In this document: one piece after another, positions 260 to 22,979 of the stretch
Layout of the letters: every line of letters starts with the position of its first letter
How positions within the stretch are numbered: position 1 is the stretch's first letter
Assembly (NCBI GenBank): GCA_030040235.1
Contig: JASHUC010000501.1
Span: 1-28,542, forward strand
Length of the DNA stretch: 28,542 nt
Source: Gammaproteobacteria bacterium
Lineage (GTDB): Bacteria; Pseudomonadota; Gammaproteobacteria; Steroidobacterales; Steroidobacteraceae
Direction: 5' to 3'
Position numbers and translations under genes: made by a program
Notes under the pieces: generated by a model
The model's input: the letters and a program-made list of their open reading frames with translations, nothing else
Told to the model about the DNA's origin: nothing
Database searches by the model: none

Positions 260-1750
260 TCAGGGCGGCGCACCAGTCTTCGTGTGCTGCACCCAGCCTC
301 CCCCGAGGGCCTTGTAGAGCGTCACTTGGTTGGCGAGCTGCGCTTGGCGCAACGTAACCAAGCCCTGCTGGGCCGCGAAGAGAGAGAGCTGTGACGTCAA
401 GGTGGTGAGATAGTTGTCCACGCCGGCGCGAAATCGCATCGCGGCGAGCCGGTACGCATCGGCATCGGCGGCAACGAGCGCGCGCTGCGCTTCGAGCTGC
501 TCGGCATAGGTGCCGCGCGCGCTCAACGCGTCCGACACTTCGCGGAAGGCGGTCTGGATCGAGAGCTCGTACTGGGCTACTTCGATCTTCTTCTGAACGT
601 GCGCGAGATCGAGATTGGCCCGGTTCTGGCCGCCCGTGAAGATCGGCAACGTGATGGTCGGCGTGAAGCTCCAGGTCCCCGTGGTTTTGCTGAAGAGGTT
701 TCCGATCTGGTTGCTCGCAGTACCGCCGGATCCGGTGAGCTGAATACTCGGGAAGAACGCCGCTCGCGCTGCACCGATGTTCGCGTTCGCCGCTCTCAGT
801 GCGTGCTCTGCGCTCAGAATGTCCGGACGGCGCGTGAGCAGGTCCGACGGCAGACCCGCGGGCACTGTTTCGAGCAGTCCCTCATGCTCGATGTCCTGCT
901 CCGGTGGCAGATCCGCCGGGATCCCCTGCCCGAGCACCAGGGTGAGAGCATGCGTGTCCTCGGCGAGCTGGCGCCGGTACTGCGCGAGCGTAGCGCGCGC
1001 GGTATCGACCTGGCTTTCGGCCTGGCGCAGGGCGAGAAGCGTCGTCGTGTCACGGTCGAACATGGCCTCGGTGAGCTGGTAAGACTCGTTCTGCGTGCGC
1101 AGGGTGCCCTCGCTGAGCTTCACGAGCGCCTGGTCGGCGAGCACCGCGAAGTAGTCGGTCGCGACTTCGCCGATCAGGCTGATCTGGCTGCTGCGCCGCG
1201 ACTCGTATTGGGAGAGGTACTGTTCGAACGCGCCGGTGGTAAGGCTCCGTTCGCGTCCGAAGAGATCGAGCTCGTAGTTGGTGAAGCCGACTCCAGCGTT
1301 GAAGTAGCGGAAGGTGCTGCTCGTTGGGCCGGTCGGCAGCGCCAGGCTGCTACCGGAGCCGCCGCCGAGGCTGCCGAGTGAAAGAGCGCCGTTCGACGGC
1401 AGTTTCTCGACGATCTCGGAGCCGGTTGCCGAGATGGAGGGGAAAAGCACGCCACGCTGCACTTGGAACTGCGCTTGGGAGGCCATGACGTTCAGCACGG
1501 CGATGCGTAGATTCCGATTGTTCTCGAGCGCGATCCCGATGAGGCGTTGCAGCCGAGGATCGGTAAAGAAGTCCTCCCAGCCGATCCGGTCGGTCGAGAG
1601 CACCGGTGCGGCGGCGCCGCCGCTGCCCGGAGCGTGCGTATCCGCAGGCCAAGCATTCGGCACGGGCGAAGCGGGCCGTTGGTAGTGTGGCATGAGCGTG
1701 CAGGCGCTGAGGGCCGCGGACGTGAGCAAGACGGCGAGGGTGCGCTTCAT
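260..1750 (-). CDS. RND efflux outer-membrane factor lipoprotein (OprM/NodT family)
   Basis: Outer-membrane channel of a tripartite efflux pump, 496 aa, the usual size for OprM-type proteins. The N-terminus [17 protein letters not shown] is a lipoprotein signal with the lipobox Cys at residue 17. The duplicated OEP (TolC-like) repeat architecture is visible: long alpha-helical stretches rich in Ala/Gln/Arg, the YELDLFGR motif early in the first repeat, and the TRRPDI segment near the middle that is typical of OprM/NodT channels. Known role: a trimeric beta-barrel plus periplasmic tunnel docking to the membrane fusion protein and RND pump. It is the last gene of the pump operon; its ATG overlaps the pump stop codon by one base (TGATG), indicating translational coupling. 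Specificity cannot be read from the sequence. Confidence 0.95.
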   Translation of the reverse strand: MKRTLAVLLTSAALSACTLMPHYQRPASPVPNAWPADTHAPGSGGAAAPVLSTDRIGWEDFFTDPRLQRLIGIALENNRNLRIAVLNVMASQAQFQVQRGVLFPSISATGSEIVEKLPSNGALSLGSLGGGSGSSLALPTGPTSSTFRYFNAGVGFTNYELDLFGRERSLTTGAFEQYLSQYESRRSSQISLIGEVATDYFAVLADQALVKLSEGTLRTQNESYQLTEAMFDRDTTTLLALRQAESQVDTARATLAQYRRQLAEDTHALTLVLGQGIPADLPPEQDIEHEGLLETVPAGLPSDLLTRRPDILSAEHALRAANANIGAARAAFFPSIQLTGSGGTASNQIGNLFSKTTGTWSFTPTITLPIFTGGQNRANLDLAHVQKKIEVAQYELSIQTAFREVSDALSARGTYAEQLEAQRALVAADADAYRLAAMRFRAGVDNYLTTLTSQLSLFAAQQGLVTLRQAQLANQVTLYKALGGGWVQHTKTGAPP

Positions 1751-4700
1751 CAGACCTCTCCCGTTGCGTGCTGCGCCCCAGGGAGGGCGGGCGTGGCATC
1801 GCTTGCGTGACGGGGCGACTCGACCAGGCGCAGCACGGCGACGAAGAATGCCGGTACGAGGAATACCGCGAGCGCTGTGGCCGTGACCATTCCGCCGGCC
1901 ACTCCGGTGCCGATGGCGTTCTGTCCGCCGGAGCCGGCTCCGGAGGCGATCGCGAGCGGCATCACGCCCATGAAGAAGGCGAGTGAGGTCATGAGGATCG
2001 GTCGCAGCCGCTGCTGTGCGGCGTGCACGGCCGATTCGATGAGGCTCAGCCCGCTTTCGTGATTCTGCTTGGCGAATTCGACGATCAGGATGGCGTTCTT
2101 GACCGAGAGCCCCATGACCGTGATCATGCCGACCTGGAAGTACACGTCGTTGTCCATGCTGCGCAGGAATGTCGCGAGCACGGCACCTACGATGCCGAGG
2201 GGCACGACGAGCAGAACCGACGCGGGAATCGCCCAGCTCTCGTAGAGCGCCGCGAGGCAGAGGAACACCACGACGAGGGAGACCGCATAGAGGGCTATCG
2301 CCTTCGAGCCCGTCGCCTTCTCCTCGTAAGAAAGGCCGGTCCAGTCATACCCGATGCCGCGGGGCAACTTTGCCGCGAGACGCTCCATCTCCGCCATCGC
2401 CTCTCCGGTACTGTGTCCGGGGGCGGGTATCCCGAGGATCTCCACGGAGGACAGCCCGTTGTAGCGCTCGAGCTTCGGAGAGCCATATGACCACTGCCCA
2501 TGCGCAAACGCTGAGAACGGGACCATCTGCCCGGCGCCATTGCGCACGTACCAGGAGTCAAGGTCGTGCGGCAGCATGCGCGAGGGCGGGTTGCCCTGAA
2601 TGTACACGTGCTTCACGCGGCCGCGGTCGAGGAACTGGTTGATGTACTCGGAGCCCCACGCGGCTTGGATGGTGTCGTTGATGTCGGCTAGGGTCAGTCC
2701 GAAGGCGCTCGCCTTCTCGCGATCGATCGCGATACGGTACTGCGGCTCATCGTCGAGCCCGTTGGGGCGCACGCCGGCGAGGACCGGGTCTTTCGCGGCC
2801 AATCCCAGGAGCTCGTTGCGTGCCTGCATGAGCGCCGCGTGTCCAAGGCCCGCCCTGTCGATGAGCTCGAAATCGAAGCCGGTGGCGTTCCCCAGCTCGA
2901 GGGCAGCGGGTGGGGCGAAGCCCACGACCATCGCGCCCGGGTAGCCGGCGAAGTGCCGGTTCACACGTGCGGCGATCTGCTGGACGCGGTTGCGCTTGCC
3001 GGGACGTTGCTCCCACGGTTTGAGCATCACGAAGGCGAATCCTGCGGTCTGCCCGTGGCCACCGAAACTCTGCCCGTTGACGGTCAGCACGCCCTCGACG
3101 GCTTGGGACTCGTGCCGGAGCAGATACTGCGCGAAGTCATCGAGCGCCTGGTCCACATGCGAGCTCGTGGAGCCGGGAGGAGCCGTGATCTGCCCGAACA
3201 TGAAACCGAGGTCCTCATCGGGCAGATAGCCGGTCGGCAAGCGCAGGATTCCGACGGCCATGATTGCAGCGACGATCGCCAGGGCGATCAACGCCCGCGC
3301 AGGGCGGCGCACGAGCGCGGAAACGCGATGCCCGTAGCCTGTTTGCCCACGCTCGTAGATGGAATTGAACCATCCGAAGAAGCCGCGGCCCACTGCCTCG
3401 TGTGAGCGCGGCTTGAGCAGCGTCGCGCAAAGCGCGGGTGTGAAGATCAGCGCAACCAGCACCGAAAGGATCATGGAAGAGACGATCGTGATGGAGAACT
3501 GCCGGTAGATGACCCCGGCCGAGCCGCTGAAGAAGGCCATCGGCACGAACACGGCCGAGAGCACGAGCGCAATGCCGACGAGAGCGCCGGTGATCTGGTC
3601 CATCGATCGGCGCGTCGCCTCCTTGGCCGAAACGTGCTCCTCCTCCATCACGCGCTCGACGTTTTCCACCACCACGATAGCGTCGTCCACGAGCAGGCCG
3701 ATCGCGAGCACCATGGCGAAAAGCGTGAGGCTGTTGATCGAATAGCCGAAGGCGCCGAGCACGCCCCCCGTGCCGAGCAGAACCACGGGGACGGCGATCG
3801 TCGGGATGAGGGTCGCCCGTACGTTCTGCAGGAAGAGCAGCATCACGAGGAATACGAGCCCGATCGCCTCGGCGAGCGTCGTGAGCACGTCACGTACGGA
3901 GTGCTGGACGAAGGGCGCGACGTCGAGCGGATAGACGACCTCGAGACCGGCTGGGAAGACCGGCTTCAACCGTGCAATCGTCGCCTTCACGGCCGCGATC
4001 GTATCGAGGGCGTTCGCGCTGGTCTCGAGCTTGACCGCGATGATGGCGGCGGGATGGCCGTTGTACTTGGCCGACATCGCATAGCTCTCGGCGCCGAGGC
4101 CGATGCGTGCGACATCGCGCAGGCGCACCTGGCTGCCGTCCGGCTCGACGCGCAGCAGAATGGCGCCGAACTCCTCCGGCGTTTCGAGATAGGAGGGTCC
4201 AACGATGGTCGCATCCAGCTGCTGCCCCGAGACGGCTGGTAGGCCGCCGAGCTCGCCGGAGGCGACCTGGATGTTCTGTGCTTGGATGGCGTTGCGCACA
4301 TCGACCGTGGTGAGGCCGTAGTTGTCGAGCTTGGCCGGGTCCAGCCAGATGCGCATCGCGTACTGCGAGCCGTAGAGCTGATAGTCGCCCACCCCGGGGG
4401 TACGGCTCACCGGGTCCTGCACGTGCGAGGCGACGAAGTCGGCAATGTCCTCCGATTTCATGCTGTCGTCGGTGGACACAAAGCCGACCGCGAGCAGGAT
4501 GTTCTTGGCAGCCTTCTTGACCGTCACCCCCTGCTGCTGCACCTCGGCGGGCAAGAGCGGCAGGGCGAGTTCCAGCTTGTCCTGCACCTGCACCTGGGCG
4601 ATGTCTGGATTGGTTCCCTGCGCGAAGGTGAGCGTAATGGTGGAGGTGCCGTCCTTGTCGCTCTCGGAGGTCATGTAGATGAGGTGATCGAGAGCGTTCA

Positions 4701-4905
4701 TCTGCTGCTCGATCGGTTGCACGACGGTGTTCTCCACGGTTTGGGCGGAGGCACCCGGATAGGTCGTGCTGATGGCGACCGAGGGTGGGGCGAGGGGCGG
4801 AAACTGCGCTACCGGCAGAGTGTAGAAGGCGATTGCGCCCATGAGCATCACGAGCAGCGCAAGCACCCAGGCGAAGATGGGCCGATCGATGAAGAATCGC
4901 GACAT
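1750..4905 (-). CDS. RND multidrug efflux pump, inner-membrane transporter (AcrB/MexB, HAE1 family)
   Basis: Proton-driven inner-membrane transporter of 1051 aa, the standard length for AcrB/MexB. I start it at 4905 ([14 protein letters not shown]), because that N-terminus is the family hallmark and GAGGAG sits upstream; the frame stays open 58 codons further but that stretch belongs to the preceding gene. Two sets of transmembrane segments flank large periplasmic loops. The proton-relay pair D407-D408 in [13 protein letters not shown] falls at exactly the E. coli AcrB numbering, and the relay lysine lies in [13 protein letters not shown]. It follows the membrane fusion gene after 11 bp, with the ribosome binding site overlapping that gene's stop, and is coupled to the outer-membrane factor gene. 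Substrates are unknown. No TetR-type repressor lies next to the operon. Confidence 0.97.
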
Positions 4906-4916
4906 GAGAGCACTCC

Positions 4917-6125
4917 TCAGCGCGAGATGAGCGCCAATGCGCGCGCGTTCGAATCGGCCAGATCCGAGGAATGCGACGGTGAGCCGCCACTTACCGTCAC
5001 CTGCATGCCGGGCTTGATGCGTTGCAAGCCGCTGACGATCAGCCGGTCTCCGGGCGCGAGTCCGCCGGTAACGACCCACTCATCGCCAATGGCACGATCG
5101 AGCTCGACGATACGCTTCTCTACCTTGTCATCCGCGCCGACGACCAGCGCAGTCGCCGTGCCGTCCGGGGCGTGCGTGATGCCTTGCTGCGCGGCAAGGA
5201 TTGCGCCCTCACGCACACCTTCCTCGATCGTGGCGCGCACGAACATCCCGGGCAGCAAGAGTTCGTTGGGATTGGGAAATATGGCCCGAAGCGTCACCGA
5301 CCCCGTTCCCTCATCCACCGTCACTTCGGAGAACTGCAGGGTACCCGGGAAGTCATAGCGCGTGCCGTCCTCGAGCAGCAGGTGCGCGGTGGCCTTGTTC
5401 GCTCCGGTGGCGACGATCCTCCCGGAGGCGAGCTCGCGCTTGAAGCGCAGGATCGTGGCAGTGGGCTGCGTCACGTCCACATACACCGGATCGAGCTGCG
5501 TGACGGTGACGAGACTGGTCGTCTGGGCGGCGGTGACGAGCGCGCCCTCGGTGACGGAGGAACGCCCGGTGCGGCCGCCGATCGGGGAGTAGACCTTGGT
5601 GTAGGCGAGATTGATCTCGGCGGTGCGGACCGCCGCCTCGCCGGAGGCGACGTTCGCCTCATCCTGCTCAAGAGTGGCGAGCGCGTTGTCGTAGTCCTCT
5701 CGACTGACGGCCCGTGCATCGACCAGTGACTTGTAACGTTCCTCGGTGAGTCTCGCAGCCACCGTGGCGGCGCTCGCATTCGCGAGCGACGCCTGCGCGC
5801 TCGAGAGGGCAGCCTCGTAGGGCGCCGGATCGATCTGATAGAGCTGCTGGCCCGCTCTGACGCGATCACCCTCGGTGAATAAGCGCCTGAGAATCACGCC
5901 GCTGACCTGCGGGCGCACCTCGGCGATGCGATAGGCATCCACCCGGCCGGGCAGCTCGGTGCTCAAGGAGACCGGAGTTGCGCGCAGCGTGACAACGCCG
6001 ACCGTCGGCTTCGGGGCGGGCGGCGGCGCCGCGTGCGGTATGCAAGCGCTCAACGACAGCGCGAGGATCGCGAGTGTGAGAACTCCGGTGACTCGGGCGG
6101 ACCAGCTCATTCGTCGAAGGACCAT
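4917..6125 (-). CDS. RND efflux membrane fusion lipoprotein (AcrA/MexA family)
   Basis: Periplasmic adaptor linking the RND pump to the outer-membrane channel, 402 aa. The start at 6125 is chosen because AAGGGGAG lies just upstream and the product then begins with a proper signal ending in the lipobox LSLSAC, with the acylated Cys at residue 28. The order is typical: lipoyl/barrel-sandwich half ([20 protein letters not shown]), an alpha-helical hairpin of Ala-rich repeats, the second lipoyl half ([19 protein letters not shown]), a beta-barrel and a membrane-proximal domain ending in [11 protein letters not shown]. First gene of the three-gene pump operon. Its predicted promoter at 6166-6194 carries the shared 24-bp box described separately, giving a leader of roughly 34 nt. 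Confidence 0.95.
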
Positions 6126-6165: not shown

Positions 6166-6231
6166 AAGGTAGGCCGGCCGAGTCGAGGGAACAATCGGTC
6201 GGGGATTGATCCAGCGTTTCACCCGAGTGAA
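6166..6231 (-). promoter_or_regulatory. Box S1 plus promoter of the efflux operon
   Basis: On the minus strand, box TTCACTCGGGTGAAA followed by CGCTGGATC (6231-6208) is separated by 13 bp from a -35 hexamer TTGTTC (6194-6189). A 17-bp spacer leads to -10 TACCTT (6171-6166), so transcription would start near 6159, 34 nt before the fusion-protein ATG. The box contains the dyad TTCAC/GTGAA. The same spacing recurs at five other places in the window. The box overlaps the last codons of the upstream 50-aa gene. Promoter activity and regulator are inferred. Confidence 0.65.
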
Positions 6232-6371
6232 TCGCGAGCCGGTAGATGCAGCGTTTCTCGAGAGTAAATCGCCGGTCGCCTCGACTGAATCAGAAGCCAG
6301 ACGAGCAGCGCGATGCACGCGAGCAGCCCGATCGGCAAACCGATTGCAAGACGCAGTAGCGGGGCACGCAT
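6219..6371 (-). CDS. Small single-pass membrane protein (50 aa) upstream of the efflux operon
   Basis: An ATG at 6371 preceded by GGAG with 8-nt spacing opens a 50-codon frame ending TGA at 6219. The product starts MRAPLLRLAIGLPIGLLAC, continues hydrophobic through IALLVWLLIQ, then turns basic (SRR) and ends in a short polar tail; this is one clear transmembrane helix with a positive cytosolic flank. Predicted promoter hexamers TTGTAT-N17-TAGCCT lie at 6427-6399, downstream of box S3. The gene points the same way as the pump genes and ends 93 bp before them. Small membrane partners of RND or fusaric-acid pumps are known (AcrZ, AaeX), but I see no clear similarity to either, so a pump-partner role is only a guess. 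Confidence 0.6.
   Translation of the reverse strand: MRAPLLRLAIGLPIGLLACIALLVWLLIQSRRPAIYSRETLHLPARDSLG
6245..6268 (-). promoter_or_regulatory. Box S2, tandem copy 37 bp upstream of S1
   Basis: Minus strand reads TTTACTCTCGAGAAA followed by CGCTGCATC, matching the shared box. It lies inside the 50-aa coding region and is 37 bp upstream of S1 in the same direction. No TTG-type -35 is found at the usual 13-bp distance, so it is probably an auxiliary site for the efflux promoter rather than a promoter of its own. Confidence 0.5.
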
Positions 6372-6398
6372 GGTGAGATCTCCATCACAGCGACCCAC

Positions 6399-6464
6399 AG
6401 GCTAGTTTCGCGTGCCCTTCCATACAACACACGCTGGTGCGACGAAGCGTTTCGCCGGAGGCAA
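6399..6464 (-). promoter_or_regulatory. Box S3 plus promoter of the 50-aa membrane protein gene
   Basis: Minus strand: box TTGCCTCCGGCGAAA then CGCTTCGTC (6464-6441), 13-bp gap, -35 TTGTAT (6427-6422), 17-bp spacer, -10 TAGCCT (6404-6399). Predicted transcription start near 6392, about 20 nt upstream of the ATG at 6371. It is head-to-head with box S4, which serves lpxR. Confidence 0.6.
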
Positions 6465-6499
6465 CGTCGGGCGCGTTTCCTGTCGCGAAACGCTTCGTC
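6441..6499. repeat. Perfect 15-bp inverted repeat formed by two head-to-head boxes
   Basis: GACGAAGCGTTTCGC at 6441-6455 is the exact reverse complement of GCGAAACGCTTCGTC at 6485-6499, with 29 bp between. The arms are the conserved ends of boxes S3 and S4, so this is better read as a divergent operator pair than as a terminator hairpin; no T-run follows and no gene ends here. Confidence 0.85.
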
Positions 6500-6541
6500 A
6501 ATCCGCAGAGCGTTGTGCAAGAGCGCGGTGTCTCAAATCAT
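6476..6541 (+). promoter_or_regulatory. Box S4 plus putative promoter of the lpxR-like gene
   Basis: Plus strand: box TTTCCTGTCGCGAAA then CGCTTCGTC (6476-6499), 13-bp gap, -35 TTGTGC (6513-6518), 17-bp spacer, -10 AATCAT (6536-6541). The -10 is the weakest of the set. The start site would fall at or next to the ATG at 6549, implying a leaderless transcript, which agrees with the absence of a ribosome binding site there. Confidence 0.5.
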
Positions 6542-6548
6542 CGCCGCC

Positions 6549-7694
6549 ATGCGCTCAATCAATCTTTGTGCGGCTGCGGCGATATCGCTCGTCTGCTTCG
6601 GAACGGCACACGCGGACGACATTTCGACCGCAGCTCCGGAAAAGCAGTCCTCCTCCGCTACGTGCTGGCCGACAACGGCGGCGGCCAATCAGCCATCGGC
6701 TACGGAGCCGAGCTCACTGGGCGGCAGCATCGTGTTTGATGAGCACGTGCTCACGGACGGCTCGCGCGACGAAGACTACGACGGGGGCGGAGAGGTCACG
6801 CTCTCCGGCCAACGGGGAGGCGTCATCGGACGAGCGCTCGATCGAGCGCTCGGCTTCATCGACGGCGCAACGTGCCCCGGGACACGCTTTGCAAACGGCG
6901 ACTGGGAAGTGGGTCATGCGTTTGCCTCCGGACTCCTCATCTTCACGCCACAGGATCTGGCCGCGCGCGCCATCGTGCGCGGCGACCGCCCGTACGCGAG
7001 CCTGTTTTTCATGAGTGTTGGACGGCGCTATACCTCTGCGGAAGAGAACGTCGCCTACGATTCGACGTTCACCGTCGGAGCGCTGGGGCTTCCATGGGCG
7101 GAGGACGTGCAAAGCACCCTGCACCATCTGACCGGCAGCGCCCATCCCGAGGGCTGGTCTCATCAGATCTCAGCCGGTGGCGAGCCGACGGCGCGGTACA
7201 ACTTCGCGCGGCAGGCGCTGCTCGGCGATTTCGGAGAAGGAACGTGGCACGGGGACACCAAATGGACGGCGGCGGCGAGCGCTGGAACGGTGACCGAAGG
7301 CAGCGTCGCCCTGAACGCACGCTGGGGTCGGTTGGAGTCGCCGTGGTCATCGTTTGCGCCGGAGGAGAACATGTACCTCGAGGAGACTCAGCCTGTGCCT
7401 CCGCCACTGCCCGCCGGCGCTCCCCTGGAAGTGTTTGCGTTCGCGGGAGCACGTGCGAAGCTACGGGTGTACAACGCATTCCTGCAGGGACAATTTCGGC
7501 AGAGCGATCTGACCTACGGAGAGGGGAGTCTCAACCAGTTCCTGGGCGAGGCGTGGGCGGGCATCGAGCTTCGCACTCCCTCCGGTTGGTCGGTGGAATA
7601 CCTCGCGCGCTGGGAGTCACCCGAGCTTCGCTCGGGCATCGGCTCACGGTCGTTCTTGTGGGGAAGCGTCGAAGTCGCCAGGTCTTTCCGCTGA
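6549..7694 (+). CDS. lpxR: Lipid A deacylase LpxR family protein (DUF2219)
   Basis: Predicted outer-membrane beta-barrel enzyme of 381 aa; LpxR removes the 3'-acyloxyacyl group from lipid A. The start at 6549 gives a clean signal peptide (MRSINLCAAAAISLVCFGTA, then HADD). Family landmarks: FTPQDL and DRPYASLFF (residues 132-154), VQSTLHHLTGS...PEGW (187-203), and a C-terminal strand ending in Arg-Ser-Phe-Arg. The central His192/193 fits the catalytic His of Salmonella LpxR. Two other active-site positions look altered: the usual YTxG is EDYDGG (Asp78) and the usual Asn-Asp pair reads Phe-Asp (63-64); this alignment is by eye. The gene diverges from the 50-aa membrane gene and pump operon, and its 3' end overlaps the convergent lipoprotein gene by 51 bp. 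Confidence 0.85.
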   Translation: MRSINLCAAAAISLVCFGTAHADDISTAAPEKQSSSATCWPTTAAANQPSATEPSSLGGSIVFDEHVLTDGSRDEDYDGGGEVTLSGQRGGVIGRALDRALGFIDGATCPGTRFANGDWEVGHAFASGLLIFTPQDLAARAIVRGDRPYASLFFMSVGRRYTSAEENVAYDSTFTVGALGLPWAEDVQSTLHHLTGSAHPEGWSHQISAGGEPTARYNFARQALLGDFGEGTWHGDTKWTAAASAGTVTEGSVALNARWGRLESPWSSFAPEENMYLEETQPVPPPLPAGAPLEVFAFAGARAKLRVYNAFLQGQFRQSDLTYGEGSLNQFLGEAWAGIELRTPSGWSVEYLARWESPELRSGIGSRSFLWGSVEVARSFR

Positions 7695-8318
7695 GGCGAT
7701 CTCGCTCGCCAGCCGATCGAGGAGCCGGCGCTCCAACCGTACGACGGCCTCGTCCGTCCCAACCGCGCCTTGCATGCTGAAATCGGTCCGGTGGCGGATG
7801 ACTTCCCCAGAAGGAGCGCGGGGAACGATATCCCAGTCCGCCTCGAGGACACCCGTTCCGGAACTCGTGATGTCCAGGCGATCGATATGAACGATCAGCC
7901 GGTAGTCGGGTGCCCGTGCGGGCGGCACGTCGGTCACCCACGCATCGGGCGTGTGAACGGTGAGCTGCGCCGTCAGGAGATCCGTGGCCGCGATTGACAA
8001 CCGGCTCGCCCAGCGACCGGTACTGCTTCGCTCGAGGACATCTCCCCGGCGGACGATCAGATCCTGCGAGTCAAGGTATTCGGGCACGCTCACGCGAGCG
8101 ATCTGGATGACAGGGGCGCCCTTCGCTGGCGGGGGATCGGCCGCAGCCGCAGTCATCGCGCCTTCGCTGCTCGCAGAGCCCTCCGAAAGCGTGTAGAGAT
8201 TCAAGGGCGGTCCGGCCACGCAGCCGGCCAGAGCAAGTGCGACCGAAAGCGGGACGCCACGCACGATTCCAATTCGAGCTCGGGGCACAGGCTGCGGCTT
8301 GGCGCATCCCCGGCTCAT
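7644..8318 (-). CDS. ABC-transporter auxiliary lipoprotein (PqiC/ABC_trans_aux type)
   Basis: A 224-aa periplasm-facing lipoprotein. The signal ends in LALAGC, with the lipidated Cys at residue 33, followed by the family opening PPLNLYTLSEG. The domain continues with VIQIARVSVPEYLDSQDLIVRRGD, WASRLSIAATDLLTAQL and a strand reading YRLIVHIDRLDI, all usual for the auxiliary lipoproteins that accompany MCE transporters (PqiC). It is last in the four-gene transporter operon; its ATG overlaps the MCE stop (ATGA), which fixes the start. The C-terminal tail runs 51 bp into the opposite-strand lpxR coding region. Likely role: an outer-membrane partner for the MCE protein in lipid transport. Confidence 0.9.
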   Translation of the reverse strand: MSRGCAKPQPVPRARIGIVRGVPLSVALALAGCVAGPPLNLYTLSEGSASSEGAMTAAAADPPPAKGAPVIQIARVSVPEYLDSQDLIVRRGDVLERSSTGRWASRLSIAATDLLTAQLTVHTPDAWVTDVPPARAPDYRLIVHIDRLDITSSGTGVLEADWDIVPRAPSGEVIRHRTDFSMQGAVGTDEAVVRLERRLLDRLASEIASAERPGDFDASPQERP

Positions 8319-9283
8319 TGCCGGCGCCCCGTCAGGAGCAGCTTGGGATTCTGCTCGATGTCGTTCGCGAAGCCTCGCAGCGCCGACGATGCATCCGACA
8401 AGTCGCTCAGGGCGGCCTCGAGATTCGCTCGATCGGGCGAACGCTCATCGGTGATTCCTTCGAGGTTACTGAGCACGTCGCGAGCGTTGGAGATCGCTTG
8501 ATTCGAGTTCACGAGCAGTGCGTGCAGGTCGGCGCCGCGCCCGTTCAGCTGCTGGTCGGCGCTGCCGGTCAACCGGTCGATGCCGGCGAGCGTCGTGTTC
8601 ATTCGGGTCTGCAGATCCTTGATGGCCGCTCGCGCCGCATCGAGCGCTTGCCCCGCCTTCACGGAGCTCGTCTTCGTACTGTCCAGCACGGCGGGCAGGC
8701 TCTTACCGACCGCGTCGGTGAGGCTTCGGATGCTCTGCAGAGCGAGGATCGCGTTTTCGGCCACCTCCTTGAGTGGTAGCTGGCTGAGCTGTCGCGTGAG
8801 CTGCCCCTCGGTCGCGCCGCTCACGGGAATCTCAGGCAGGTTGACGAGGTGCGGATGAAGTTTGGCAGGGATAGCGCGGTCGAAATCGAGGTCGATCTCG
8901 CTCTCATCGGCGATGAGGCTCATCGGAACCACCTCGGCCCGCAGCCCATCGGCTACCCATTGCGATATCGGCGCTCGAGTGCCGCCATAGTCCTCGGGGA
9001 GCACCACCCTGCTGTCCTTCAGTTGGATTCTGACCGGGATGTGTGCCTGACCGGTCCTTGGGTCAAACGCAATCTCGACGGAGGACACCGCTCCCACGCG
9101 AACCCCGCGGAATGTGACCGGTGAACCCACGCCGAGTCCGCTCACGGAGCCGTCGAACACGATCTCTGCGGCCCGGGTCTCGCCGAAGAGGTCGAGCCTC
9201 CCGAACACGACGACGGTAGCGAACGCAAGGCCAACTCCAATGAGAACGAAAAGCCCTACCGCGGCGAGCCGTGCACTTGCCAT
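8315..9283 (-). CDS. MCE-domain lipid-transport protein (MlaD-like)
   Basis: A 322-aa substrate-binding subunit of an MCE-type lipid ABC transporter. Residues about 5-30 form a single N-terminal transmembrane helix (LAAVGLFVLIGVGLAFATVVVFG). The MCE domain follows, with the hallmark VSGLGVGSPVTFRGVRVGAV and later KLETSS-like helical region replaced by long amphipathic helices (about 180-310) of the PqiB/YebT-like C-terminal type. Such proteins form hexameric periplasmic rings carrying phospholipids between membranes. The start at 9283 has GGAG upstream; the gene overlaps the ATPase by 28 bp and the lipoprotein by 4 bp. Confidence 0.93.
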   Translation of the reverse strand: MASARLAAVGLFVLIGVGLAFATVVVFGRLDLFGETRAAEIVFDGSVSGLGVGSPVTFRGVRVGAVSSVEIAFDPRTGQAHIPVRIQLKDSRVVLPEDYGGTRAPISQWVADGLRAEVVPMSLIADESEIDLDFDRAIPAKLHPHLVNLPEIPVSGATEGQLTRQLSQLPLKEVAENAILALQSIRSLTDAVGKSLPAVLDSTKTSSVKAGQALDAARAAIKDLQTRMNTTLAGIDRLTGSADQQLNGRGADLHALLVNSNQAISNARDVLSNLEGITDERSPDRANLEAALSDLSDASSALRGFANDIEQNPKLLLTGRRQ

Positions 9284-10140
9284 AGCTTTTGCTCCAGGTA
9301 TGGGGAGGGGTGGGGGCCAGAGCTCCCGGGATCCTCGCGCCGCATGAACGCCTGCACCCGCGGATCCTCCGAGTGATCCCGCAGCTGAGCGGCGGAGCCG
9401 TGAGCAATGGCCGATCGCGTCTTTCCATCGAGGAATACACCGTCGGCCGCGATCGCAAAGAGACTCAGCAGATCGTGACTCACGACGACGATGGTGGCGC
9501 CGAGAGCGTCGCGCAGATCGAGGATCAGGTCATCGAGGCGCCTTGCGGCCACAGGGTCGAGTCCGGCGGACGGCTCATCCAGGAACAGAACCTCCGGGTC
9601 GAGCGCCAGCGCTCGTGCAAGGCCTGCCCGCTTGGCCATTCCGCCCGAGAGCTGTGCGGGCATCAGATCGATGGCGTCTTCGAGACCTACCAGGGCGAGC
9701 TTGACCTCGACCAGCGCTCGCATCGCGCGCTTGTCGAGATTCGTGAACATCTGCATCGCGAGCGCGACATTCTGGCCGACCGTGAGGGAACTCCACAGCG
9801 CTCCGCTTTGAAACAAAACGCCGAAGCGGCGCCCCATCTGTGCGCGCTCGTGCTCGGGTAACCCCCAGTAGTTCTCGCCCGCGAAGGTCACTGTGCCGCC
9901 CTGCGGCTTGGTCAAGCCGATCAAGGTGCTCAGCACGGTACTCTTGCCGGCCCCGCTTGCGCCCATGATCGCGAACACACTGCCGCGGCGGACATCGAAG
10001 GACAGCTGCTGCTGCACGACCTTGTCACCGTAGCCAACGGTCACGTCGCGCAGCGCGAGAATGGGCTCATCGCCAGCCGACTGGAGCACGGGTACGGAGT
10101 TGGCTGCTCCCGGTTCGACGGCATTTTCTGCGGGGCTCAT
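9256..10140 (-). CDS. ABC transporter ATP-binding protein (MlaF-like)
   Basis: A 294-aa cytosolic ATPase energising MCE-linked lipid transport. Walker A is GASGAGKST, the signature is LSGGMAKRAGLARAL, Walker B is VLFLDEPSAGLDP and the switch His is in VVVSHD. The MAKR variant in the signature helix is characteristic of MlaF-type ATPases. I take ATG 10140, because GGGGAG lies 8 nt upstream; a GTG at 10149 that overlaps the permease stop (GTGA) is an alternative adding three residues. The C-terminus extends past the core with a Pro/Gly-rich tail that overlaps the start of the MCE gene. Confidence 0.95.
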   Translation of the reverse strand: MSPAENAVEPGAANSVPVLQSAGDEPILALRDVTVGYGDKVVQQQLSFDVRRGSVFAIMGASGAGKSTVLSTLIGLTKPQGGTVTFAGENYWGLPEHERAQMGRRFGVLFQSGALWSSLTVGQNVALAMQMFTNLDKRAMRALVEVKLALVGLEDAIDLMPAQLSGGMAKRAGLARALALDPEVLFLDEPSAGLDPVAARRLDDLILDLRDALGATIVVVSHDLLSLFAIAADGVFLDGKTRSAIAHGSAAQLRDHSEDPRVQAFMRREDPGSSGPHPSPYLEQKLWQVHGSPR

Positions 10141-10145
10141 ATCGG

Positions 10146-11258
10146 TCACTCCCCACGAGCGTCCATCATCACGGCAAACAGAGCATCGAGCGCGATGATG
10201 CCAAGAATGTTAGCGACGACTGCGCCCGTCGCCGCATCGCCGACCGCCCGAGCACTGCGAGCGGCTCTGAGCCCCATCCGGCAGCTCACGGTGCCAATGA
10301 GCGCCGCGAAGGCGATGCTCTTCACGGCTCCGAAGATGAAGTCCGTAAGCGGGACCGCATCGAGCGTCTCGCGCAGGTACTGCATGGCGGTGAAGCCCAG
10401 CGAAACCGTCGAGACTGCAAGTCCGCCCAGGATTGCGATGAGGGAGCCGAGGAGGTAAAGGATAGGCATCGCGACGCACAGCGATACGACCGACGGCATT
10501 ACGAGAAACTCGCCGATCGGGATGCCGAGCACCCGGAGTGCTGCGATCTCGTCATTGCCGCGCATGGTCGCGATGCGTGCGGCATAGGCCCCACCGGTGC
10601 GTCCGGCCATGACGATGGCCGTCACGACGCTGGAGAGCTCTCGCACGGAGGCGACGCCGACCAGGTTGGGAACGTAGGTTTCGGCGGCATAGGCACGCAG
10701 CTCCGCTGCGCCGATGAAAGCGAGAATCGCTCCCACGAGGAAGTTGACGGTGCCGACGATCGCCACGGCGCGCGGTCCCGCATTGAGCAGATCGGAGACC
10801 AGATCGACGCCACGAAAACGAGCCCGGCCGAGCAGCAGCCTTGCGGATCCCGCCACGGTTTGGGCGAGGAGTACAGCGCTCCTGCCCACCTCGACCAGGA
10901 GATCGACCGCCTGAGTGACTGTCCAGGCGACAGGGCGCAGAGGCGCTCGCGCTGCGAGCCGCGGTTTGCGGGGCGTTGCCGGAAGGAGATGCACGAGTTG
11001 CCGCGCTGAGGGAGGCAGCGCGGAGTCGTCGAAGACCATCCCATTGGCGGCGGCCATTCGTTTGATGCTCCATAGGAAGGCGACCAGAGTCGTGTCCCAC
11101 TTGCCGAGCCGGGTGGTATCGAACGCCACGCCACGTATCGCGGAATTGCTGCAGAGACGTGCGATCGCGGGTGCCTGCACCTCCGACTGAGTCAACCAGT
11201 CACCCCTGAGGGCGATCGTCGCCGCTCCATCTCGACTGCGAAATTCCCACGCCGCCAT
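10146..11258 (-). CDS. STAS-MlaE fusion: lipid ABC transporter permease
   Basis: A 370-aa inner-membrane permease of the MlaE family with an N-terminal STAS-like domain. Residues about 1-90 (AWEFRSRDGAATIALRGDW ... FDTTRLGKWDTTLVAFLW) resemble the anti-sigma-antagonist fold that is the separate MlaB subunit in E. coli. After a linker the MlaE domain begins near residue 130, with conserved AIVMAGRTGGAYAARIATMRGNDEIAALRVLGI and five or so hydrophobic segments. The start is ATG 11258, preceded by GGAGGG; an in-frame TTG five codons upstream is less likely. First gene of the operon, with the S5 promoter about 60-130 bp upstream. Fusion of MlaB and MlaE functions is known in this superfamily. Confidence 0.92.
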   Translation of the reverse strand: MAAWEFRSRDGAATIALRGDWLTQSEVQAPAIARLCSNSAIRGVAFDTTRLGKWDTTLVAFLWSIKRMAAANGMVFDDSALPPSARQLVHLLPATPRKPRLAARAPLRPVAWTVTQAVDLLVEVGRSAVLLAQTVAGSARLLLGRARFRGVDLVSDLLNAGPRAVAIVGTVNFLVGAILAFIGAAELRAYAAETYVPNLVGVASVRELSSVVTAIVMAGRTGGAYAARIATMRGNDEIAALRVLGIPIGEFLVMPSVVSLCVAMPILYLLGSLIAILGGLAVSTVSLGFTAMQYLRETLDAVPLTDFIFGAVKSIAFAALIGTVSCRMGLRAARSARAVGDAATGAVVANILGIIALDALFAVMMDARGE

Positions 11259-11326
11259 GGCCCGGCCCTCCAATCCTTGCGGTCCTGCGCTGTGCGGCCA
11301 AGCTCGCGGGGAGCCGACCGCTTCTC

Positions 11327-11392
11327 ACCGTAGGCCCCGGAGCCGCTGGGAACAATCAGGCCGGCGGAGATGCTGCGTTTCGTGCTGGTGAA
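11327..11392 (-). promoter_or_regulatory. Box S5 plus promoter of the lipid-transporter operon
   Basis: Minus strand: box TTCACCAGCACGAAA then CGCAGCATC (11392-11369), 13-bp gap, -35 TTGTTC (11355-11350), 17-bp spacer, -10 TACGGT (11332-11327). The GATTGTTCCC around the -35 and the GGCCTAC at the -10 are identical in sequence and spacing to the efflux promoter S1. Predicted start near 11320, about 60 nt before the permease ATG. A degenerate extra copy with one inserted base may lie at 11403-11419. Confidence 0.65.
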
Positions 11393-11440
11393 CCTGCGTG
11401 CCGTTTCCCGAGGAGGCAAGATGCAGCGGCGCCGCCCTTG

Positions 11441-11506
11441 TTTCCTCGCGCGAAATGCATCATCCAGCGGATGAGCATTGCTGAGAAGGAGCCCCGAAAC
11501 TAACGT
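11441..11506 (+). promoter_or_regulatory. Box S6 plus promoter toward the 55-aa ORF and transaldolase
   Basis: Plus strand: box TTTCCTCGCGCGAAA then TGCATCATC (11441-11464), 13-bp gap, -35 TTGCTG (11478-11483), 17-bp spacer, -10 TAACGT (11501-11506). Predicted transcription start near 11513. It is divergent from S5, mirroring the S3/S4 pair. The spacing match on the opposite strand is the evidence that this is not chance. Confidence 0.55.
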
Positions 11507-11568
11507 GCCGCAGGAAGCTCCGCATCCTGCGCCTCGGGACGCAAGTCGCTACGGAGCCGGAGGCCGAT

Positions 11569-11736
11569 ATGCGCCGCGAAATGGTTCTACTGAAGGCTGT
11601 GGAGGGAACACGGGAAGGCTGGCTCGTGATGGAGCGGGATGAATTCATGGAACAGATGGATCTGGAAAAATGGGACGCTCAACAGCTGCTGATCGGAACC
11701 GTGCTGCCCGCGGGCCCGCCGCGAAGGCTGAATTGA
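11569..11736 (+). CDS. Small acidic hypothetical protein (55 aa)
   Basis: ATG at 11569 has GGAGG five nt upstream and opens a 55-codon frame ending TGA. The product begins MRREMVLLKAVEGTREGWL and has an acidic middle (MERDEFMEQMDLEKWD) followed by a QQLLIGTVLP segment and a basic tail. It has no signal peptide or transmembrane helix, and I do not recognise a family. The frame stays open about 28 codons upstream but without a convincing start. It lies between the S6 promoter and tal, 44 bp before the latter, so the two are probably co-transcribed. Confidence 0.5.
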   Translation: MRREMVLLKAVEGTREGWLVMERDEFMEQMDLEKWDAQQLLIGTVLPAGPPRRLN

Positions 11737-11780
11737 CCGGAGCCTGAACCGGTCTCGAGCATGAAGCGAAAGGTGATTGC

Positions 11781-12866
11781 GTGAACGCCACTCGAACCCT
11801 GTATGCCCACGGCCAGAGTCTCTGGCTCGACAACATCACCCGCGATCTGCTCACGAGCGGTGCGCTCGCGAAGTACATCGCGGAGTTCTCGATTACGGGG
11901 CTCACCTCGAATCCGACGATCTTCGATCACGCCATCAAGGGCGGATCAGCCTACGATGCGGCGATTCGCGCCGGGGCGGCCCATTGGACGAGCGGCGAGC
12001 GCCTGTTCTTCGACCTCGCGCTCGAGGACATCACGCAAGCTGCCGACCTCTTCGGGCCCATTCACGAGCGTACCGCCGGGGTGGACGGCTGGGTGTCACT
12101 CGAGGTCTCCCCCCTTCTGGCTCACGACGCTGCCGCCACCCTTCGTGAGGCGAAGGAGCTTCATGCGCAGGCTGGGCGCCGGAACCTGTTCATCAAGATT
12201 CCGGGGACTCGGGAGGGACTGCCCGCGATCGAGGAGACCGTTTTCGAAGGAATTCCCGTCAATGTGACGCTGCTGTTCTCGCGCCCGCAGTACCTTGCGG
12301 CAGCCGAGGCGTGGCTTCGGGGCATCGAGCGTCGCCTCGCCGCGGGACTCAACCCCAATGTTCCATCCGTCGCTTCGCTCTTCGTCAGCCGCTGGGACGT
12401 GGCAGTAGCGGGGAAGGCGCCGAGCGAGCTCGCCAACCGGCTCGGACTCGCGATCGGCCAGCAGGTCTACCGGGAGTACTCGCAGCTCCTCGAGTCGGCG
12501 CGCTGGCGGCGGGTCATGAATGCCGGCGCGCGCCCTCAGCGTCTGCTCTTTGCCAGCACCGGCACCAAGGACCCACAGGCGCCCGACACGCTGTACGTGC
12601 GCGGTCTTGTCGCGCCGCTCACGATCAATACCATGCCGGATGCGACCCTCAACGCGTTTGCGAAACACGGACAGGTGGATCGCGAGCTGGCGGCCGACGG
12701 GGGCGACAGCGAGCGTGTTCTGGCCGGCTTCGAGCAAGCGGGCATCCGGCTCGAGGCTCTTGCCGCGAGGCTCCAGGAGGAGGGAGCAGCGGCATTCGTG
12801 TCCTCGTGGAAGGACCTGCTCGGTTTGATCGAAGACAAGGCGGCAGCGTTGATCGAGACCGGCTGA
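11781..12866 (+). CDS. tal: Transaldolase
   Basis: Cytosolic enzyme of the non-oxidative pentose phosphate pathway, moving a dihydroxyacetone unit between sedoheptulose-7-P/glyceraldehyde-3-P and erythrose-4-P/fructose-6-P. The 361-aa length fits the longer, mycobacterial/cyanobacterial-like transaldolase class. Motifs: SLWLDNITRDLL and GLTSNPTIFDHAI near the N-terminus, and NLFIKIPGT with the Schiff-base Lys139, followed by GIPVNVTLLFS. The start is GTG at 11781, the point where homologous sequence begins; AAAGGTGA lies upstream. It appears to sit downstream of the S6 promoter and apart from the other pentose phosphate genes, which begin 3.5 kb further right. A GC hairpin follows the stop. 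Confidence 0.95.
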   Translation: MNATRTLYAHGQSLWLDNITRDLLTSGALAKYIAEFSITGLTSNPTIFDHAIKGGSAYDAAIRAGAAHWTSGERLFFDLALEDITQAADLFGPIHERTAGVDGWVSLEVSPLLAHDAAATLREAKELHAQAGRRNLFIKIPGTREGLPAIEETVFEGIPVNVTLLFSRPQYLAAAEAWLRGIERRLAAGLNPNVPSVASLFVSRWDVAVAGKAPSELANRLGLAIGQQVYREYSQLLESARWRRVMNAGARPQRLLFASTGTKDPQAPDTLYVRGLVAPLTINTMPDATLNAFAKHGQVDRELAADGGDSERVLAGFEQAGIRLEALAARLQEEGAAAFVSSWKDLLGLIEDKAAALIETG

Positions 12867-12881
12867 TGCCGGCTGGTCAAA

Positions 12882-12900
12882 CCCGCCCGGTGGGGGCGGG
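12882..12900 (+). terminator. GC-rich hairpin after transaldolase
   Basis: CCCGCCC, loop GGTGG, GGGCGGG forms a perfect 7-bp all-GC stem 15 bp after the tal stop codon. There is no T-run, so it is either a weak intrinsic terminator or an RNA-stabilising 3' end. Confidence 0.5.
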
Positions 12901-12947
12901 AACGCATCGATGCCCGCGTTCGCGCGCGAGCGCGAGAGGAAGCTCCC

Positions 12948-13148
12948 ATGACTCCGAGATTCGTGCTGCTGCTGTTTGCGCTCCCGTGCGCATTCGCCAC
13001 GGATTCAGCTTGCGCCGCAGGCACCGATCCTGCAGTGACTCAGGTGCAGACGCTCGATCGGTTCCTCCTCGAGTCCATGCAAGCGGGTCCAACCGCATCA
13101 GTGACGCACTCGAGATCGGTAGCACGATTCCGTAACGCTGCACCGTGA
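12948..13148 (+). pseudogene. Truncated MlaC/Ttg2-like exported protein remnant
   Basis: ATG at 12948, preceded by GAGAGGAAG, opens a frame with a convincing signal peptide (MTPRFVLLLFALPCAFATDSACAA) and then DPAVTQVQTLDRFLLESMQAG. That pattern is how MlaC/HpnM-type periplasmic phospholipid-binding proteins begin; they normally run about 200 aa. Here the resemblance stops near residue 50, the rest is Arg/Ser-rich translation and a stop comes at codon 67. No continuation was found in the other two plus frames. I read it as the 5' end of a mlaC-like gene cut by a deletion between about 13,100 and 13,190, where the orphan promoter S7 now begins. The family call rests on the first 50 residues only. 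Confidence 0.5.
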
Positions 13149-13189
13149 CGGCGGTGCCAAGGGCCCCCGGGAGCGAGTCCACACGCAGC

Positions 13190-13255
13190 ACGATATTCAG
13201 GAGCCCCGGGGGGAACAATCGAGCTCGCCGAGATGCAGCGTTTCGTGCGAGTCAG
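13190..13255 (-). promoter_or_regulatory. Box S7 plus orphan promoter
   Basis: Minus strand: box CTGACTCGCACGAAA then CGCTGCATC (13255-13232), 13-bp gap, -35 TTGTTC (13218-13213), 17-bp spacer, -10 TATCGT (13195-13190), the best -10 of the set. Transcription would start near 13183 and run antisense across the mlaC remnant; no gene with a ribosome binding site lies downstream on this strand. It starts only 4 bp from the end of marR. Confidence 0.55.
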
Positions 13256-13258
13256 CCG

Positions 13259-13747
13259 TCAGCTTGCGATATCCAACGGGCTGCCGGACTCGACCATCGA
13301 CTGCAGGCGTGTGTTGAACTTGGTCAGCAGCCGTGTGAGCTCCTGTAGCTCGACGGCGCTGAAGTCCTCCACGGCGAGATTCAGGAGTTCAAGGATGGAG
13401 GGCAGCATCGCATCGAGAACCTTGCGCCCCGGGGCGGTCAGCTGCAGCTCCACCTTGCGTCGATCCACGTCGCTGCGCAGCCGCACGACGAGCCCCCGCT
13501 CGGCGAGCTGGTCGATCACGCGCGTGAGGGCGCCGCTGTCGTGACGAAATTGGGCGCAAATGTCCTTGGGATTCAGGGTGGCACTGTCCCGCAGCAACAC
13601 GAGGATGATGTACTGCGCATACGTCAAGCCGTGTCGCTCGAGCAGCGGCTCCACCAGATCGAGCATCAGGGAGTGCGCTCGCTTGGCGAGATAGCCGACG
13701 CTGCAGTGCGAGCTGTAGGTCGAAGCCTTGTAATGCTGCCTAGGCAC
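13259..13747 (-). CDS. MarR-family transcriptional regulator
   Basis: A 162-aa winged-helix regulator of typical MarR size. The HTH and wing are visible: LTYAQYIILVLLRDSATLNPKDICAQFRHDSGALTRVIDQLAERGLVVRLRSDVDRRKVELQLTAPG covers residues about 40-108, with the conserved DRR in the wing. Flanking helices form the dimerisation domain. The start is GTG at 13747 with GGGAG upstream. It is divergent from a lysR gene, and the two predicted promoters overlap. Repeats within its leader and a TGCCTAGGCA palindrome at the start codon are candidates for autorepression. Its ligand and other targets are unknown; MarR proteins near efflux loci often respond to aromatic compounds. Confidence 0.93.
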   Translation of the reverse strand: MPRQHYKASTYSSHCSVGYLAKRAHSLMLDLVEPLLERHGLTYAQYIILVLLRDSATLNPKDICAQFRHDSGALTRVIDQLAERGLVVRLRSDVDRRKVELQLTAPGRKVLDAMLPSILELLNLAVEDFSAVELQELTRLLTKFNTRLQSMVESGSPLDIAS

Positions 13748-13773
13748 TGGCTGCTCCCGCTTGATTCTGTCCA

Positions 13774-13800
13774 GGCACTTACTGCCTTTACATTTACTGC
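13774..13800 (-). promoter_or_regulatory. Candidate MarR operator in the marR-lysR interval
   Basis: On the minus strand GCAGTAAATG (13800-13791) and GCAGTAAGTG (13785-13776) are direct repeats 15 bp apart, and GGCA-CTTAC-TGCC (13774-13786) is an inverted repeat. They lie just downstream of the marR transcription start and overlap the lysR -35, so binding could block both genes. Binding is inferred. Confidence 0.4.
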
Positions 13801-13815
13801 TTTGGCAGCTACATT
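13787..13815 (+). promoter_or_regulatory. Predicted sigma70 promoter of lysR
   Basis: TTTACA (13787-13792), 17-bp spacer, TACATT (13810-13815); start near 13822, about 68 nt before the lysR ATG. The -10 overlaps the marR -10 on the opposite strand. Confidence 0.5.
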
Positions 13816-13841
13816 ATCGGGCAGAGTCTCGCAAGTGTCAA
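13813..13841 (-). promoter_or_regulatory. Near-consensus sigma70 promoter of marR
   Basis: Minus strand TTGACA (13841-13836), 17-bp spacer, GATAAT (13818-13813); start near 13806, leader about 59 nt. This is the closest match to the sigma70 consensus in the window. Confidence 0.65.
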
Positions 13842-13889
13842 TCAAGTGGCGGAGCGGCGGGCGGAGTCGTCCGCGAAGGTAGGGCCCGA

Positions 13890-14870
13890 ATGGACACACT
13901 CACCAGCATCAAGGTTTTTCGGCAGGTCGTGGACTCCGGAAGTTTCATGAAGGCTGCCGATCGGCTCGACATGTCGGCCGCCATGGTCAGCAAGCATGTC
14001 ATGCATGTGGAGCAGCGGCTCGGGGTGCGACTGCTCAATCGCAACAGTCGATCGCTCAGTCTCACGGAGCCCGGCAGGCTCTATTTCGAGCGCTCGAAGC
14101 GCATCCTGGAGGAGCTGCAGGCGACCGAACTGGAGCTCGGCTCTCTCGGCAGCGTTCCCCGGGGCACGCTGCGAGTCAGCGTGCCGAGCTCGGCCTCGGG
14201 CCAGTGGCTCGCCGAGCTTCTCGCGGAGTATCGCCGGCGATATCCCGAGGTCGTGGTCGACGTTTCCTTCGAGGACCGCTTCGTCAATCTCGTGGACGAG
14301 GGGTACGACCTTGCGCTGCGAATCACCTCCAGCCGAGATTCCCTCCCGCCAGGCCTGATCGCCCGTCCCCTTCGACCGGCGGTGTTCTACCTCGCTGCCT
14401 CGCACGAATACCTCGAGCGCCGCGGAGCCCCGGCCTCTCCCGCGGATCTCGCGCAGCACGACTTCATCGCAGTGGGCGACGTGCTCGACTGTTTGCCGCG
14501 AGCCGCTGGGAGCGAAAGGGCTCAAATTCCGCTCCACGTCGTGCTGCGCTACCGCTCGATGGACGGCGTCGCCAATGCCATCGCTGCGGGCATCGGCATA
14601 GCACCGGTCCCGGCAGTCCTGTTCGAAGATCCGGCGTTCCGGGACGTCCTGACGCCGATCCTCCCCGACTACCCACTGCAACAGGCAACGCTCTACGTCG
14701 TCTATGCAAGCCGGAAGTTCGTGCCGCAGAAGCTTCGGACGTTCGTGGACTTCATCGTGGAATCTCTTTCTCCTCTTTCGGAGCAGAAGACTCGCCTGTT
14801 TCGAGCGCCCGAGCCCGTTCTCAAACTGCCGCTCACCTCGCCCGCCGAGCGCCGTCCTGCGCATATATAA
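13890..14870 (+). CDS. LysR-family transcriptional regulator
   Basis: A 326-aa LysR-type regulator. The start at 13890 (MDTLTSIKVFRQVVDSGSF) matches the usual N-terminus, with AGGTAGGG upstream; the longer open frame extends into promoter DNA. The HTH covers residues about 1-60 (AADRLDMSAAMVSKHVMHVEQRLGVRLLNRNSRSLSLTEPG); the effector-binding domain runs from about 90 to 300. It is divergent from marR and immediately precedes the PAS-glgX genes on the same strand, so those may be targets or co-transcribed. It closely resembles the second LysR gene at the right edge of the window. It is also one candidate for recognising the T-N11-A boxes upstream of the envelope genes. Confidence 0.94.
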   Translation: MDTLTSIKVFRQVVDSGSFMKAADRLDMSAAMVSKHVMHVEQRLGVRLLNRNSRSLSLTEPGRLYFERSKRILEELQATELELGSLGSVPRGTLRVSVPSSASGQWLAELLAEYRRRYPEVVVDVSFEDRFVNLVDEGYDLALRITSSRDSLPPGLIARPLRPAVFYLAASHEYLERRGAPASPADLAQHDFIAVGDVLDCLPRAAGSERAQIPLHVVLRYRSMDGVANAIAAGIGIAPVPAVLFEDPAFRDVLTPILPDYPLQQATLYVVYASRKFVPQKLRTFVDFIVESLSPLSEQKTRLFRAPEPVLKLPLTSPAERRPAHI

Positions 14871-17496: not shown

Positions 17497-17501
17497 GATC
17501 G

Positions 17502-17630: not shown

Positions 17631-17722
17631 GACGTTGGAACGACTCGACTAAGATGAATGTTCATGAGAAGCGCGTAGCATGATCGGGAATTTTTGTGAG
17701 AAGCCCCTGGAGTGGCACAGTC

Positions 17723-20242: not shown

Positions 20243-20250
20243 GAGGGTAC

Positions 20251-21906
<1,656 letters not shown>

Positions 21907-21941
21907 GCGCCTCGGCGGATCGACCCTATGGAGATACGCGC

Positions 21942-22961: not shown

Positions 22962-22979
22962 CCGCAGGAGGCTCTTGCG

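Follow-up and report, generated by a model that had tools for sequence, protein, structure and literature searches.

A recurrent box-promoter format before envelope genes in Steroidobacteraceae and its candidate LysR-type reader

LysR-type proteins are expected to read a T-N11-A dyad at a position near -65, and several of them, including MexT, BpeT and CeoR, control an adjacent efflux pump of the resistance-nodulation-division (RND) type. Here we describe a box with such a dyad in a stretch of 28,542 nucleotides, referred to as the window in the following, from a gammaproteobacterium of the family Steroidobacteraceae (assembly GCA_030040235.1, contig JASHUC010000501.1, positions 1 to 28,542 of the forward strand). 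Unlike the arrangements of MexT, BpeT and CeoR, several separate promoters share one site here, including those of lipid A and lipid-transport genes. Our comparisons show that the promoter format is real and recurs in relatives, and suggest that its most likely reader is a LysR-type activator.

The closest known system, WatR-WatABO-WatS, follows a similar logic with a different motif and site position. WatR of Methylomonas sp. DH-1 is a LysR-type transcriptional regulator with a palindromic T-N11-A site and the RND pump WatABO as a target; its targets also comprise five small open reading frames (ORFs) of about 50 amino acids (aa), four of them with one membrane helix, and in unstressed cells, without acetate, it represses the watS genes (PMC10355033). 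The T-N11-A boxes described here likewise stand, over the window and its relatives, before RND pump operons and several ORFs for membrane proteins of about 50 aa with one predicted helix. However, the WatR motif is ATTGTT-N11-AACAA, whereas the present box reads TTTC-N7-GAAACGCTgCATC, and WatR sites overlap the -35 element of watS, whereas the present boxes stop 13 bp before it. Furthermore, the present boxes precede lpxR, pagL and Mla genes, which are not among the WatR targets named in the portion of PMC10355033 considered here. A sequence-only reading of the window had called a joint regulon of efflux, lipid A editing, phospholipid transport and transaldolase undescribed. This was too broad, because the WatR regulon already unites a LysR-type regulator, an RND pump and one-helix proteins of about 50 aa (PMC10355033). 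Among open-licence PMC papers, we found no report of a regulon uniting these with lipid A deacylases (LpxR, PagL) and Mla/MCE genes. A further point of reference is AcrZ, a small membrane protein of AcrB in Escherichia coli (PMC7267776).

The box and its promoter spacing

All seven boxes that the sequence-only reading had picked out are present at the coordinates and on the strands given in Table 1. When each was omitted in turn and a matrix of the other six was run over both strands of the 28.5-kb window, the omitted site scored 22.6-30.0 bits and the best non-site 24-mer 13.1-15.3 bits over the seven rounds, with every left-out box outscoring all other 24-mers on either strand. The proposed length of 24 bp falls short in the relatives, where the consensus over 44 sites is GAAACGCTSCATCAAC and conservation reaches column 27. 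The dyad is TTTC-N7-GAAA (T-N11-A), with more conserved bases, CGCTgCATCaac, on the side of the -35 element; the column counts of the 44 sites give TTTC-N7-GAAACGCTgCATCaac. A possible second dyad, CAAC-N9-GTTG near -41, is weak and was set aside, as G stands at column 37 in just 15 of the 44 sites. By eye, 11393-11416 (minus strand), upstream of S5, resembles a weak box.

The boxes stand at one distance from a promoter. At S1, S3, S4, S5, S6 and S7, a TTG lies exactly 13 bp past the box and is followed after another 17 bp by a -10-like hexamer, five of these six second hexamers beginning with TA, as the sequence-only reading had described; at S2, the position 13 bp past the box is the beginning of box S1. 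The chance of six out of seven boxes having TTG at one spacing is about 1e-10, estimated with the window's own TTG frequency and corrected for 31 spacings. Judged from this fixed -35/-10 layout, the dyad would be centred some 65 bp upstream of the predicted start of transcription.

The spacing also emerges from a pattern that is silent on the promoter, namely the right half of the box alone (GAAACGCTNCRTC), which was run on 12 genomes picked for boxes or the LysR gene discussed below. It gave 40 matches, against 7 for the reversed pattern. TTG occurred at offset 13 in 13 of the 35 matches examined, only one of these 13 being a training site of our models, and in at most two at any other offset; the remaining 22, which are without the layout, look like chance matches. 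In the 44-site set, TTG is found in 41 sites, TA at -10 in 28 and T-N11-A in 38, counts that flatter conservation because 18 members of the set had served to train the matrix that picked it (later loci, e.g. L112 and L115, are excluded).

Boxes in related genomes and the genes behind them

As the sequence-only reading had suggested, we extended the search to genome-wide scans of relatives, in which the box-promoter layout recurs within one family. The species-genome collection yielded one relative, L001, whose MlaE is 66% alike to that of the window. Three strong boxes occur in it, one each ahead of PagL (another family of lipid A 3-O-deacylases), of the Mla operon (via a 55-aa ORF) and of a GH15 gene; TTG stands at the fixed distance for the PagL and GH15 boxes, and TGAGCC for the Mla box. 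Two sequence models were used: R1, built from nine sites, for 150 family genomes, and R2, built from 19 sites, for 217. With R2, 15 of the 217 genomes matched at E <= 0.003 and 11 strongly at E <= 1e-4. Sites may have been missed in scans over more than 40 genomes, because filters were stricter there and 13-34 candidates were scored per genome. Across 396 genomes of the order, which partly overlap the family set, a cut-off of 0.001 yielded one new match, G301, which is weak and lacks the promoter portion. The weak matches L044 (G086) and L087 (G165) from the other scans were dropped, as they have no promoter layout. In the 4.5-Mb genome of L001, matches at E <= 0.01 are confined to one 13-kb contig, while in G186, G192 and G154 they are spread over three contigs each, which argues for a small, mostly local regulon of more than one locus.

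The set of genes behind the boxes is unusually envelope-centred. Six genomes have a lipid A deacylase gene behind a box. This is LpxR in the window, L077 and L078, and PagL in L001, L042 and L043, with a small ORF between box and PagL in L042; the divergent box pair at lpxR is also found in L077 and L078. The Mla operon is preceded by a box in L001 and L077 as in the window. An RND operon follows a box in the window, where S1 lies ahead of the MFP gene, and in L074, where the 11830+ box precedes an operon whose RND permease is 68% identical to that of the window. Zn-binding dehydrogenases follow boxes in L042 and L080, and GH15 enzymes in L001 and L043. Fragments resembling the N-terminal part of GH15 occur after a small membrane ORF in L077 (~3.4-3.5 kb) and L084 (~5.1-5.4 kb), as if left by a decayed enzyme gene. 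The transaldolase stands behind a box in the window only, where the first ORF past S6 is the 55-aa ORF, and no homologue of it was found in those loci of relatives that were annotated. In all three genomes with lpxR behind a box (window, L077, L078), its start codon (ATG 6549 in the window) lies 6-7 nt past the -10 hexamer, so that the lpxR mRNA is predicted to be leaderless. Named organisms among the best 120 matches of LpxR include Steroidobacteraceae (2), Burkholderiales and Gammaproteobacteria.

Small hydrophobic ORFs recur behind the box promoters, and this is new here. Within 200 nt of 14 of 45 promoters (the 44-site set plus L001 6059-, added by hand), there is an ORF of 37-82 aa that has a ribosome site and includes a strongly hydrophobic stretch, compared with a mean of 0.10 and a maximum of 1 in 200 shuffles, by a criterion that was fixed after the ORFs had been seen. 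One of the 14 is the window's 50-aa ORF, p50. P0155 and P0156 (58 and 64%) have its N-terminal helix in conserved form but differ in the tail, and its structure model is a single helix (residues 3-31; mean pLDDT, the predicted local distance difference test score, 75.6). There is support for p50 being a real gene. Aligning thirteen of the small proteins revealed a loose likeness only, which suggests two or three kinds and not one proven family. A second small family of 60-68 aa with the pattern DYSxA...WLGDRYLLA, of which WLGDRYLLA is invariant, also lies behind boxes, some of them weak. A box likewise precedes the 55-aa ORF in L001 and L043, as it does in the window. The likeness to AcrZ lies in small size, one membrane helix and, for p50, a promoter format common with the RND pump operon. 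A profile of the 13 small proteins had no match to PDB chains at E <= 10, a test of little power for a profile this short and one that assumes AcrZ chains to be present.

Table 1. Boxes and genes of the window (all rows down to the LysR-type regulator) and members of the second small family in related loci.
Feature	Position	Strand	Elements or basis	Assignment
Box S1	6208..6231	-	-35 TTGTTC 6189-6194, 13 bp past box; -10 TACCTT 6166-6171	RND efflux operon promoter
Box S2	6245..6268	-	tandem with S1, 37 bp upstream	without own promoter
Box S3	6441..6464	-	-35 TTGTAT 6422-6427; -10 TAGCCT 6399-6404	promoter of 50-aa membrane ORF
Box S4	6476..6499	+	-35 TTGTGC 6513-6518; -10 AATCAT 6536-6541	lpxR promoter
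Box S5	11369..11392	-	-35 TTGTTC 11350-11355; -10 TACGGT 11327-11332	MCE/Mla operon promoter
Box S6	11441..11464	+	-35 TTGCTG 11478-11483; -10 TAACGT 11501-11506	promoter of 55-aa ORF and transaldolase
Box S7	13232..13255	-	-35 TTGTTC 13213-13218; -10 TATCGT 13190-13195	orphan
Outer-membrane efflux protein (OMF)	260..1750	-	Pfam	
RND permease	1750..5079	-	Pfam	
RND periplasmic adaptor (MFP)	4917..6125	-	start ATG 6125; Pfam	
50-aa ORF (p50)	6219..6371	-	one predicted membrane helix; ribosome site	
lpxR	6549..7694	+	Pfam	lipid A deacylase family LpxR
ABC ATPase (MlaF-like), MlaD/MCE protein, ABC auxiliary lipoprotein	7644..10149	-	Pfam	
MlaE-type permease	10146..11258	-	Pfam	first gene of MCE operon
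55-aa ORF	11569..11736	+	conserved in L001 and L043, likewise behind boxes	
Transaldolase	11781..12866	+	Pfam	
MarR-family gene	13259..13747	-	Pfam	beside S7
LysR-type regulator	13890..14870	+		proposed box reader
Second small family, L001	8899-9090			
Second small family, L042	9726-9932			
Second small family, L077	730-912			
Second small family, L086	375-566			

Two further parts of the window may be mentioned. A 66-aa ORF (12948-13148, plus strand) has a signal-peptide-like start, and S7 is directed antisense to it; by eye it resembles a cut-off MlaC, a likeness that is unproved because Pfam gave no match at E <= 1. The stretch 15211-26446, which is without boxes, carries a glgX-like gene, glycogen phosphorylase, pgi, gnd, zwf and tkt, followed by an AraC gene.

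A LysR-type gene as candidate reader of the box

The sequence-only reading had proposed a LysR-type (T-N11-A) activator site shared by several promoters and left the regulator unnamed. The layout in relatives speaks for such a site, as does its co-occurrence with one group of LysR proteins, and the candidate put forward here is a gene of the window that starts 0.6 kb from S7. Its ORF (13761-14870) contains both PF00126 (HTH_1, N-terminal) and PF03466 (LysR_substrate, C-terminal), and homologues align from the ATG at 13890. The nearest NCBIfam models are YafC (NF040888) and AaeR (NF007917), with scores of 177 and 133, respectively, so far under the curated equivalog cut-offs of 470 and 425 that the protein is none of these named regulators. 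The best PDB match is 3hhg, which we take to be CrgA. The likeness to YafC, AaeR and CrgA extends to domain make-up and group similarity.

Homologues of this LysR protein (E <= 1e-75) are found in 17 copies in nine of the 217 family genomes, eight of which belong to the 11 genomes with strong boxes (Fisher 1.4e-11). When the five genomes that had contributed model sites are removed, four of five LysR genomes remain within the six box genomes of 212 (9e-7). At the level of loci, taken with up to 1.5 kb on either side, 10 of the 17 homologues have a box, compared with none in 20 shuffled sets; these loci include two pairs that each stand on one contig, the sites of L097 include a training site and the box of L092 is weak. 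For instance, G186 has boxes before three LysR genes: directly at L074 10490+, about 0.4 kb away at L074 2199+ and with a small ORF in between at L075 8460+. Equal-sized contigs (8645, 31597, 129957 and 269060 bases, besides the window) in the LpxR and LysR protein searches suggest that LpxR and this LysR protein stand on common contigs elsewhere too; two shorter coinciding lengths may be due to chance.

Taken with the spacing, these observations make it probable, in our judgement, that the box is the site of the window's YafC/AaeR/CrgA-like LysR protein, which would mainly activate a small and mostly local envelope regulon. The protein would bind the dyad TTTC-N7-GAAA some 65 bp before the expected start, and the fixed steps of 13 and 17 bp would place it to recruit RNA polymerase at weak sigma-70 promoters, that is, mainly as an activator. 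Outputs of the regulon would be the RND pump, one very small membrane protein, a deacylase of lipid A (LpxR in the window and PagL in relatives), the MCE/Mla transporter and the 55-aa ORF. If the analogy to WatR-WatS holds, the small membrane proteins would probably tune a transporter, and the signal would probably be a toxic weak acid or a lipophilic compound.

Several findings weigh against this assignment. On the side of the boxes, S7 is without a recognisable gene downstream, and the promoter at the fixed distance is missing from some good boxes (S2, L079 1937-, L112 7639-, L108 4166+ and L001 6127-). On the side of the protein, seven of the 17 LysR homologue loci are without a box, and a relaxed search for box variants at these seven found none; they include the closest homologue (80%, G001:C366), which stands beside other, MFP-/OMF-like efflux genes. 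Conversely, the strong-box genomes G027, G155 and G168 have no LysR homologue at E <= 1e-75, with G168 carrying 37-40% relatives, one of them about 0.9 kb from a box. The LysR tree, in which two G193 copies are represented by the same protein and counted as one, fails to split box-bearing from boxless copies, and the co-occurrence partly reflects shared descent because the genomes are related. Lastly, a MarR match (E <= 1e-15) is found in 7 of the 11 box genomes and in 83 of 217 overall, a weak association (Fisher 0.07-0.08).

As a separate observation, four of the seven boxless LysR loci adjoin efflux operons, three of the RND type (L109-L111) and one MFP-/OMF-like (L105), and L110 and L111 have a common stretch, GATGAATTCAAA, ahead of the pump genes.

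Alternatives and implications

The MarR figures and the box genomes without a close LysR homologue would fit a different reader of the box, be it the MarR neighbour, a protein of the AraC or TetR type, a response regulator or some unknown factor, with the LysR gene merely travelling along. MarR-family genes indeed stand close to boxes in the window as well as in L074 and L081 (the latter two 27-29% alike to that of the window), an AraC gene near a box in L042 and a TetR gene beside one in L040. However, the neighbouring MarR protein tracks the box weakly and the five genomes with its closest orthologues (60-63%) have no strong boxes, so we do not favour it; AraC and TetR genes were each seen beside boxes in one relative, and the dyad and its predicted place near -65 match what is generally expected of LysR-type proteins. 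We therefore consider a different reader unlikely.

It also seems improbable to us that the LysR protein binds the box but mainly represses, as WatR does at watS in unstressed cells (PMC10355033). The conserved -35 element TTGTTC is unlike TTGACA, and the regulator may make contacts there, which would suit a repressor, but WatR sites at watS overlap the -35 element (PMC10355033), whereas the present box ends 13 bp upstream of it, and the weakness of the -35 and -10 elements would rather resemble activated promoters. A dispersed repeat or a piece of an alternative-sigma promoter is very improbable, for although some extracytoplasmic function (ECF) sigma factors have -35 elements resembling the GAAAC of the box, six window sites and most sites of relatives have a sigma-70-like pair downstream at a fixed distance, columns 30-37, where an ECF -10 element would be expected, are little conserved, and the box copies differ outside the conserved bases and stand before different genes.

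Returning to the LysR protein as a mainly activating reader, a broader picture may be drawn, for and against which we see the balance as even: in one Steroidobacteraceae-like lineage, this regulator would run an envelope-defence programme through one promoter format, combining RND efflux, one-helix proteins that retune transporters, deacylation by LpxR or PagL, and MCE transport. If so, it would extend the logic of WatR-WatS from weak-acid efflux to outer-membrane remodelling, and undescribed small membrane proteins would be its commonest output. Lipid A deacylases, efflux, lipid transport and small membrane proteins would thereby be linked under one candidate regulator that can be named, and small membrane proteins of these genomes could be sought by reading downstream of box-13-TTG-17-TA promoters.

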